40,634 bases of DNA from a virus. The stretch's first letter is position 1. Every line of letters starts with the position of its first letter. Where the stretch lies: IMG/VR virus record IMGVR_UViG_3300032235_000805, positions 1-40,634 of that record. The stretch is one strand, 5' to 3'. Below are positions 20,697 through 34,477 of the stretch, piece by piece. The notes below the pieces were generated by a model. It searched no databases. It saw only the letters and a list, made by a program, of their open reading frames with translations, and was not told the origin of the DNA. The position numbers were made by a program, and so were the translations under genes.

Positions 20697-21470
20697 ATGG
20701 CATCAATCTACATCATTGAGAATAAGGAAAACGGCAAAAGATATGTGGGTAAAACTACTCTATCAAACCCATATGATAGATGGAGACAACACAAATACAA
20801 TGCTAAAAGTAACTACAATCATATGGTAATCAGTGATGCAATTAGTAAGTATGGAATAGACAATTTTACCTTCTATGTAATAGAAACTTGTGATGATGAA
20901 GTTGTCAATGAAAGAGAAACATATTGGATAAACAAGTTCAATACTTATAAAAATGGATATAACTCAACTCTTGGTGGTGAAGGTGTAAAAAGAGACATAG
21001 AGTTAGCATATCATCCAGACACAATTTCAATCAGTTGCTATACACTAGATGGAAAACATATTAGAGATTATAAGAGTAGAGGTGCAGCAGGTAAAGAGTT
21101 AGGAATTAAAAGAAGTTCTATCACTGCTTGTATTAAAGGAAAGACATTTCAAGCTGGTGGATATAGATGGAGTTGGAAAGATAGTGAGTTAATTGATATT
21201 AAAAAGAGAACAAATACAAGAACTAAAATATACGGTATTCATAAAAATGGCGATAGAAAAGTGTGGGATAGTCAAGCAGATTGTGCCGAAGATATAGAAG
21301 GAAATAGAAAAGTTAATGCTAATGTAAGACGCTCAATCATAAGTCCCAACTATAACAAATTTGAGTGTAAGAATTGGTATCTATTCAGAGAAAATGTTGA
21401 TGAGTTTATAGCAGCAACTCCAAACAGATTTAATAGTGAAACGGGGAGAAAGGCAGCGTTAAAAGCATAA
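20697..21470 (+). CDS. GIY-YIG homing endonuclease with NUMOD DNA-binding modules
   Basis: 257 aa. The GIY-YIG nuclease core is IYIIENKENGKRYVGKT (residues 4-20), with a conserved Arg in DRWRQHK (R28/R30) and the likely metal-binding Glu in ERETYWI (E74). GYNSTLGGEG (88-97) is typical of phage freestanding GIY-YIG enzymes. A NUMOD1-like unit follows (SCYTLDGKHIRDYKSRGAAG, then IKRSSITACIKG and GGYRWSW), and a second repeat-like part starts at IYGIHKNGDRKVWDSQADCA. It is the only convincing plus-strand gene and is AT-rich, consistent with a mobile gene inserted between leftward units. It has both an upstream sigma70-like and a late promoter. Freestanding rather than intron-borne: no broken gene flanks it. 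Confidence 0.9.
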   Translation: MASIYIIENKENGKRYVGKTTLSNPYDRWRQHKYNAKSNYNHMVISDAISKYGIDNFTFYVIETCDDEVVNERETYWINKFNTYKNGYNSTLGGEGVKRDIELAYHPDTISISCYTLDGKHIRDYKSRGAAGKELGIKRSSITACIKGKTFQAGGYRWSWKDSELIDIKKRTNTRTKIYGIHKNGDRKVWDSQADCAEDIEGNRKVNANVRRSIISPNYNKFECKNWYLFRENVDEFIAATPNRFNSETGRKAALKA

Positions 21471-33204: not shown

Positions 33205-33816
33205 TTACTTTGGTGTGTAGTCGTGCTTGAGTTGAACTTGTTCTGGTTTCTTACCTTGCTTTTCTGCTTCAGATTGTCTTACAAGAGTTTCAAGTTTTCT
33301 GTGCCCTGCTCTAGTAATCTCCTTTCTTTTCTCTCTTGACATACCAACAACAGCACGTTTTGGTTGCCCTTCAGGTCTCTTATCTACTTCAGTTTTCTTT
33401 GTCTTGAGAAGTTGTGATGCAGTTTTTGTTGCTTCCTTTGCTTTAGGTTGAGATGCTGCTGGTGCAGATCCACCACCTTTCTTTGCAGCAATTCTTGCTA
33501 ATGCTGCCTTCTTTCTTTCTTCTTTTGCTGCTTCTGCTGCCTTTGCTTTTACATCAGCACTTCCACGTTCTTGAGTTGGTTGCTGAACTCTTGTGGATGC
33601 TTGTCTTTGAGTGCCAATATCCTTTCTTGGTTTATAGTCTGTTGGTTTTCTTTCTTCTCCAGGCTTTGCCTGTGCCATTCTACGCTTTTCAGGAGCAGTC
33701 TTTTTACGTTCAGCACCGATACGACCGCCTTCACCAGTTCTTCTAATTTGAGAAGAACCCATAACCTCCTTGTCGTATACTTCGGCAAGAATCATAAACT
33801 CCTGAAAAGTCTTCAT
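33205..33816 (-). CDS. Basic internal-protein candidate with T4-like capsid-targeting N-terminus
   Basis: 203 aa, extremely rich in Lys, Arg, Ala and Gln, low complexity and probably disordered (AAEAAKEERKKAALARIAAK). The N-terminus MKTFQEFMILAEVYDKEV matches the T4 internal-protein capsid targeting sequence MKTYQEFIAEA, and LAE fits the T4 gp21 protease cleavage rule (L/I-A/G/S/T-E). A late-type promoter lies 24 nt upstream although neighbours are early-type. I infer a protein packed in the head, cleaved, and perhaps injected with DNA. Homology is from memory of T4 IPI-III; T4 internal proteins are similarly small and basic. Confidence 0.8.
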   Translation of the reverse strand: MKTFQEFMILAEVYDKEVMGSSQIRRTGEGGRIGAERKKTAPEKRRMAQAKPGEERKPTDYKPRKDIGTQRQASTRVQQPTQERGSADVKAKAAEAAKEERKKAALARIAAKKGGGSAPAASQPKAKEATKTASQLLKTKKTEVDKRPEGQPKRAVVGMSREKRKEITRAGHRKLETLVRQSEAEKQGKKPEQVQLKHDYTPK

Positions 33817-33840
33817 CTGTATCTAAAAACTACCTTGAGT

Positions 33841-33848
33841 TATTTATC
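33841..33848 (-). promoter_or_regulatory. T4-type late promoter before the internal-protein candidate
   Basis: Minus strand GATAAATA, 7/8 match to TATAAATA, overlapping the TGA of the 72-aa gene, 24 nt before the ATG. Confidence 0.68.
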
Positions 33849-34065
33849 AGTCAGAATCCTCAAGTAGACCTAGTGCCTTATCTGCTGCAGATTTAGAACC
33901 TACAAAAACTTGTTTCGTTTCATAAAAATAACGAACACGTTCACGACGAGCAGCAATCAAAATGTCGTATTCTTCTTGTTGCTGTTTAGTAAACTTAAAA
34001 TCTTGCTTACGCCAAGCATCTTTCAGTTCGTTGAGATGAGGCAGAACATTTACAGTTTGAGTCAT
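33847..34065 (-). CDS. Hypothetical protein, 72 aa
   Basis: MTQTVNVLPHLNELKDAWRK then QDFKFTKQQQEEYDILIAAR and a C-terminal QVFVGSKSAADKALGLLED. Basic helical core. Its TGA overlaps the following late promoter. Function unknown. Confidence 0.8.
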   Translation of the reverse strand: MTQTVNVLPHLNELKDAWRKQDFKFTKQQQEEYDILIAARRERVRYFYETKQVFVGSKSAADKALGLLEDSD

Positions 34066-34067
34066 AA

Positions 34068-34205
34068 TCAGTAATCGTAATTGGAGTTCAAATAGGTGTT
34101 AAAGGATTTTGAATTATCTTCCTCCTCAAAGAGACCTTCATTCATCTCTTCAACAAAGTCAAAGGAAGAAAACTCCTCTACTGAAAGATCATCAAAGTCG
34201 TCCAT
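34068..34205 (-). CDS. Hypothetical acidic protein, 45 aa
   Basis: MDDFDDLSVEEFSSFDFVEE then MNEGLFEEEDNSKSFNTYLN. One third acidic residues with regularly spaced Phe; probably disordered or a DNA/partner mimic. First gene after copy 13, and its TGA lies 2 nt before the next ATG. Function unknown. Confidence 0.76.
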   Translation of the reverse strand: MDDFDDLSVEEFSSFDFVEEMNEGLFEEEDNSKSFNTYLNSNYDY

Positions 34206-34218
34206 TTGAGTTTGAGTG

Positions 34219-34254
34219 CTTACATTATTAGGACACTTTCAAGGCCCCAGAGTT
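34219..34254 (-). repeat. Intergenic promoter-like element, copy 13
   Basis: Minus strand AAACTCTGGGGCCTTGAAAG then TGTCCTAATAA and TGTAAG, 14 nt before an ATG. Confidence 0.86.
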
Positions 34255-34258
34255 TTTA

Positions 34259-34450
34259 TCAGCGAGACAGTATTGCTTTCATTCTAGCTTTCTTTGCTGC
34301 TAGTTGTGCTCCTGCTTCGTGCTCCATTTCTCCGTGTGCTTGACGGATTTGCATACCTTTCCAACGTGCAGATTGTCTTGCAACTTGTTTGTTATACTCA
34401 TTGGGTTGCATTGTTGGATGCTGTTCCATAAACTGCTGGAAGGTTTTCAT
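34259..34450 (-). CDS. Small basic protein with MKTFQQFM N-terminus
   Basis: 63 aa. MKTFQQFMEQHPTMQPNEYN shares the first eight residues with the 203-aa internal-protein candidate and with T4 capsid-targeting sequences, but lacks the L/I-x-E cleavage site. The rest is basic and helical (RQSARWKGMQIRQAHGEMEH, AKKARMKAIL). A late-type promoter lies 19 nt upstream. Plausibly a second packaged protein. Confidence 0.76.
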   Translation of the reverse strand: MKTFQQFMEQHPTMQPNEYNKQVARQSARWKGMQIRQAHGEMEHEAGAQLAAKKARMKAILSR

Positions 34451-34469
34451 TTCTACTACACTTTTTGAG

Positions 34470-34477
34470 TATTTATT
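34470..34477 (-). promoter_or_regulatory. T4-type late promoter before the 63-aa MKTFQQFM gene
   Basis: Minus strand AATAAATA, overlapping the TAA stop of the 48-aa gene, 19 nt before the ATG. Confidence 0.68.

Follow-up and report, generated by a model that had tools for sequence, protein, structure and literature searches.

Why should two nearby genes of a virus encode proteins whose bodies are mutually unrelated but whose first residues are nearly the same? The two genes, A and B, lie on the minus strand of virus record IMGVR_UViG_3300032235_000805, a stretch of 40,634 bases that was analyzed whole and is called the window here. B comes first in the order of transcription, and A is farther downstream. 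We consider the window to be a fragment of a T4-like cyanophage, because the gp6-like protein of its baseplate shares 57-59% identity with those of Synechococcus and Prochlorococcus T4-like phages and because it has a gp8 domain. An earlier note on this DNA had described two basic proteins starting with MKTFQEFM and MKTFQQFM, each behind a late-type promoter, and both reading frames, their N-termini and the promoter boxes are as it said (Table 1). We propose, with high confidence, that A and B are late-made internal (core) proteins of the phage, which are loaded into the prohead through a T4-type targeting sequence.

Table 1. Coordinates of the two tagged genes, their leaders and their promoter boxes in the window
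Feature	Position	Strand	Description
Gene A	33205-33816	-	203 aa, tagged, basic, pI 10.32; starts MKTFQEFMILAE
Capsid-targeting tag of A	33781..33816	-	MKTFQEFMILAE; predicted prohead-protease cut after E12
Late-type promoter box of A	33841..33848	-	GATAAATA, starts at 33848
Gene B	34259-34450	-	63 aa, tagged, basic, pI 10.36; starts MKTFQQFMEQ
Capsid-targeting tag of B	34424..34450	-	MKTFQQFME; cut after E9 possible, weak
Late-type promoter box of B	34470..34477	-	AATAAATA, starts at 34477

In the mechanism we suggest, A and B would be expressed late from promoters of the gp55 type (NATAAATA). The leader of 7-12 residues, aromatic at positions 4 and 7, would attach them to the prohead scaffold while the shell is still open. 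A gp21-type prohead protease would then cut behind a hydrophobic-x-Glu site, in A after MILAE. Judged from the sequence, both proteins are probably trimmed in this way, A more surely than B, which would perhaps be cut after FME or be left uncut. The basic bodies would stay among the packaged DNA and, by analogy with T4, are probably ejected with it at infection.

Both the shared start and the shared promoter stand out against the rest of the window. Among 80 non-overlapping ORFs, only A and B begin with M[KR][TS][FY]xx[FY]. Shuffled N-termini gave a mean of 0.0125 such starts, and two or more were never obtained in 2000 shuffles. Two such starts are therefore not expected by chance. The NATAAATA boxes lie 25-32 nt upstream of the starts of A and B. 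Since only 6 of the 80 ORFs have this box within 60 nt upstream (gp8- and gp25-like genes among them), the probability that both tagged genes have it by chance is about 0.005. The ORFs adjoining A and B are without a late box, and to this extent the earlier description of early-type neighbors stands; the sigma-70-like matches in the window (37 vs 29±6.5 expected) are no proof of early promoters. In the window (33817-33850) and upstream of the relatives of A, this box frequently forms part of an imperfect inverted repeat, e.g., CTAAATACTAAAAAGTAGTGTTTAG, that reaches towards the start codon of A. A late-type box is also present upstream of a GIY-YIG homing endonuclease gene with NUMOD domains at 20697-21470 on the plus strand, where the surroundings are mostly on the minus strand.

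The closest known parallel is found in the internal proteins of T4. Like IPI, IPII and IPIII, A and B have a leader of the MKT[FY]xEF type, in which positions 4 and 7 are aromatic. The statement that T4 internal proteins begin MKTYQEFIAEA is right for IPII and IPIII in the T4 record, but IPI begins MKTFKEFTSTTTPVSTITEA, a form that is closer to the tags of A and B. Targeting experiments in T4 have shown that ten residues suffice, with residues 4 and 7 driving targeting and residues 8 and 10 driving processing, and that a position-10 variant is targeted yet uncut (PMC9026906). By analogy with this variant, B may be targeted without being cleaved. In alignments of three unrelated families (A, the short form of B and the cytidylyltransferases), positions 4 and 7 are invariably aromatic. 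In the T4 proteins and in A, a hydrophobic-x-Glu follows after a variable spacer, with the glutamate at E10 in IPII and IPIII, E19 in IPI and E12 in A. As in T4, the proteins are small and basic with mutually unrelated bodies, and the genes lie outside the main structural cluster. There are also differences. The bodies of A and B have no detectable similarity to the T4 internal proteins beyond the tag, and the cut site of B is weak. A late box is directly upstream of A and B, whereas no TATAAATA is found within 60 bp of the T4 ip genes. In addition, the relatives of the window carry the tag on enzymes and multi-domain proteins too.

The earlier note had seen MILAE at the right place for cleavage in A. 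In a test of sequence only, A has the (L/I)xE prohead-protease site in the range of 10-19 residues, as LAE at residues 10-12. This agrees with the gp23 processing sites predicted by analogy with T4, which are LTE/A, LAE/A and LTE/A in three isolates and LTE/A, LME/S, LTE/S and LYE/S in the window's own clade (slash, cut). On the same analogy, LAE of A fits and FME of B would fit poorly. Just behind the gp23 propeptide is a GPVAG(F/Y)DPxMG motif, which is also present in L260 and S-CREM2 ORF160 proteins, one of about 78 aa; ORF160 (L143:28342-29235) is present in S-CREM2 virions.

Relatives of A occur in 70 viral contigs and in the isolates S-SM2, SynMITS9220M01 and P-TIM68, and its phage matches are confined to cyanophages and to virus records from marine single cells. 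Conservation is highest in the leader, with 94% in residues 1-7, compared with 72% across residues 13-90 and 55% in the remainder. M1, T3, F4 and F7 are invariant in an alignment of 30 diverse sequences from sources other than isolates. Between F7 and the glutamate, the relatives differ in length (FIAE, FCAE, FMILAE, FMSICE), and the (A/V)(x)YD after it is kept. A variable spacer with a kept (A/V)(x)YD is the pattern expected of a leader with a cut site. A late box is upstream in 97% of the 73 A-family ORFs. The body is rich in Lys, Arg and Ala, and in the AlphaFold model it is mostly low-confidence or helical, with a C-terminal helix. This model (mean pLDDT 66, pTM 0.27) is too weak to support a fold search.

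The coding of the A leader raises the question of whether the tag acts at the nucleotide level, as a signal for expression, and not as a targeting peptide. Codons 5-6 (window 33799-33804) are CAG GAG in 80 of 87 A-family copies, as against a predominance of CAA and GAA at most other conserved Gln/Glu codons of the gene. An internal start at Met8 (CAGGAG-TTT-ATG) was rejected, since CAGGAG persists where residue 8 is Val or Ile. However, the remaining tag codons change synonymously, which points to selection on the peptide. In other tagged families, codons 5-6 are CAAGAA, CAGCAG or AGAGAG. We therefore regard a nucleotide signal as very unlikely, and we keep to a targeting peptide.

B has relatives in 68 viral contigs, and a tblastn search of annotated phages gave none. 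Residues M1-F7 and E9 are invariant in 11 short-form sequences, and a late box precedes 88% of the 52 B-family ORFs. Behind the tag, AlphaFold predicts one long helix. In many relatives, residues 9-63 of B form the C-terminus of longer proteins, which themselves start with the tag (MLTFREFYGICEG, MKTFQQFNED). The only cleavage candidate in B is FME at residues 7-9, which is no classical (L/I)xE, and in the long relatives of B the customary position is taken by ICE.

The earlier note had suggested looking for the tag in sister genomes, and it is common there, with 33 matches to ATGNNNACNTTYNNNSARTTY in 12 large sister contigs and 0 in the reversed control. Among the wider relatives, a late box ([ACT]TAAATA within 75 nt upstream) is present in 126 of 144 distinct tagged ORFs and in 112 of 1519 other ORFs, mostly beginning 25-34 nt before the start codon of the tagged ORFs. 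Tagged ORFs have a median pI of 10.3, compared with 6.7 for the others, and 142 of the 144 have hydrophobic-x-Glu within residues 7-16 (27±4 when shuffled). Because relatives of A and B, with 73 and 52 ORFs, dominate these counts, a view by family is fairer. The tagged bodies fall into about 13 groups, all basic, of which 8 have a late box; several tagged families are without a late box of their own. One additional hit in this grouping was set aside as an antisense chance ORF of the window, which is acidic and has neither box nor cleavage site. The large share of the A and B families could suggest plain descent of one gene family, with the common N-terminus as its remnant. We give this even less credence than the nucleotide signal, because the body groups have no mutual BLASTP similarity once the first 13 residues are removed and the tagged set includes a cytidylyltransferase, a SAM lyase and a kinase. 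One contig alone (G004) encodes A, long B, the SAM lyase and the cytidylyltransferase.

An exchangeable leader is also indicated by the way in which the proteins have grown. In the SAM-lyase family, MK[TS]Fxx-F is immediately ahead of the domain in 42 of 50 distinct copies. In 6 copies with inserted modules, it is the longer ORF that starts with the tag (MKTFQEFTTEA, MRTFQEFMEIAE, MKTYQEFTTEA, MKTFIQFMNES, MKTFQQFTTEA). Copies L219 and L238 have an extra N-terminus before an internal tag remnant. The module insertions in the B and SAM-lyase families usually fall behind the tag, which is thus nearly always fixed at the N-terminus while the bodies change.

Published virion proteomes connect this leader with the virion. 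The S-CREM2 proteome was published with coordinates (PMC10665884). S-CREM2 virions contain a cytidylyltransferase (MKNFSSFLTEA), a SAM hydrolase (MKDFDSFLEEF) and a kinase (VKRFDAFLTEE), as well as ORFs starting with MKDLHSFLTEQ, MNFSEFNES and MQTFSMFFSED. Besides the cytidylyltransferase, the tagged and virion-detected proteins are ORF6, 13, 14, 15 and 136, and most of the tagged virion genes have late boxes. The SAM hydrolase is ORF6 (L140:3837-5081), which matches the Pfam SAM lyase (E=2e-19). Cytidylyltransferases detected in the virions of S-CREM2, S-SCSM1, S-SZBM1 and S-SM1 all start with the tag. In a comparison that drew on isolate records and contig searches, M1, F4, F7 and E10 (numbered by the first sequence) are invariant in seven cytidylyltransferases. 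The enzyme is found in 5 of 6 sister contigs tested, always tagged, and a scan of viral contigs with the S-CREM2 protein gave one locus only. As a separate observation, the conserved cyanophage cytidylyltransferase/NMNAT (T4-GC190) has the tag in every copy read (L143:24608-25468 of S-CREM2, L150-L154, L146, L261-L265). The tag of A and B is of the same type as that on the virion NMNAT/cytidylyltransferase, APH-like kinase and SAM lyase of S-CREM2, S-SCSM1, S-SZBM1, S-SM1 and S-CRM01. Tags of these Synechococcus-phage virion enzymes include MKNFSSFLTEA, MKSFLQFLKEA, MKKFSAFLNEA, MRFRQFIIEA, MISFDQFLSEK and MKDFDSFLEEF, often with a late box. Their bodies are enzymatic, whereas those of A and B have no recognizable domain.

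Genome-wide, the association between tag and virion is p=0.009-0.02 in S-CREM2, which is support and not proof because the pattern was settled after the S-CREM2 tags had been seen. In S-SCSM1 it is p=0.07-0.13 and in S-SZBM1 p=0.26-0.45. We did not retain the association as a general rule, as it is significant on its own only in S-CREM2 among these three phages. Tagged S-SZBM1_191 and _192 and a 106-aa protein of S-SCSM1 are not among the reported virion proteins; virion mass spectrometry easily misses small proteins. The S-CREM2 virion protein annotated as Cas9, ORF12 (L140:7704-10313), has the tag-like stretch LRFASFMAEA at residues 17-26. Pfam gave no match to it at E<=0.1 and its sole PHROGs hit is phrog_3561, of unknown function, so that the Cas9 annotation is doubtful. 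S-CRM01 g128 has an extended N-terminus similar to that of ORF12 (LSLDSFIKEAAP). Taken with residues 4 and 7, the cleavage site, the late boxes and the unrelated bodies, the tagged proteins in relatives' virions give good support to the earlier proposal of proteins packed in the head.

A and B could still be transient scaffold or core components like T4 gp67, gp68 and gp22, which are targeted to the prohead, degraded at maturation and never injected. The tag would equally carry a core protein into the prohead, and A is a long basic protein with low model confidence over most of its length. Residence in the prohead core, as proposed for A and B, is shared with the three T4 proteins, and gp22 and gp67 are cut by gp21. 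To our knowledge, however, none of the three has such a tag. Unlike what we propose for A and B, they are essential for building the head and have mostly gone once it has matured (PMC9026906), and the relatives' tagged proteins listed in the virion reports persist in mature virions. A transient role is thus improbable, and we infer that A and B are themselves packaged, cleaved and ejected.

What they would do after ejection is a refinement of this packaging reading and not an alternative to it. All three T4 internal proteins inhibit Type IV restriction (PMC12373910), and IPI, IPII and IPIII are all anti-restriction proteins (PMC12373910, PMC9391042). Since the tag is also found on a SAM lyase (PF23780, E=7e-17 in relatives), an enzyme of a type known to counter restriction, whose S-CREM2 homologue is reported in virions, an anti-defense role of A and B is plausible by analogy. 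On the other hand, searches of Pfam and of the PDB sequences with A and B found nothing, PHROGs gave no significant match, and the body of A is conserved and rich in Lys, Arg and Ala, unlike fast-diversifying inhibitors. We consider specific action against host defense, as that of T4 IPI-III against GmrSD, possible but on the less likely side. As a first guess, the bodies would be DNA-bound head or entry proteins, with inhibition of host defense second.

Capsid-targeted internal proteins are already known, and a review has suggested that the capsid-targeting signal lets T4-like phages load varied proteins (PMC9026906). In the open-access literature, we found no report of the signal in cyanophages or on their virion enzymes, and the passages on these enzymes in the source papers do not mention a targeting sequence. 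NMNAT, kinases, SAM hydrolase and the Cas9-annotated protein are repeatedly found in cyanophage virions with their entry route unexplained, and the authors could not exclude carry-over (PMC10665884). A T4-type leader would explain their presence, and it predicts further packaged proteins, here A and B. We lean towards the view that T4-like cyanophages use one short exchangeable leader as a general head-loading signal for changing effectors (SAM lyase, NMNAT, kinase, Cas9-annotated protein and A/B-type proteins), which would be delivered with the genome. If so, the sequence would allow head payloads to be predicted in marine and freshwater cyanophages alike, and the injected anti-restriction strategy of T4 would apply also to the abundant viruses that infect cyanobacteria of the sea and of fresh water. 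If packaged, a SAM lyase could counter restriction ahead of any phage gene expression.

T4-like viral contigs commonly encode proteins with a SAM-lyase domain (PF23780) and the tag, usually behind a late box, with 282 candidate loci (e.g., L161:1023-1532, L164, L175-L254). The clade (L160, L163, L168, L171) also repeatedly encodes a tagged protein of 51 aa, MKTFKQFQEDWSDKYKKSIDCSSPKGFSQRAHCAARKKR, whose gene has no late box of its own.
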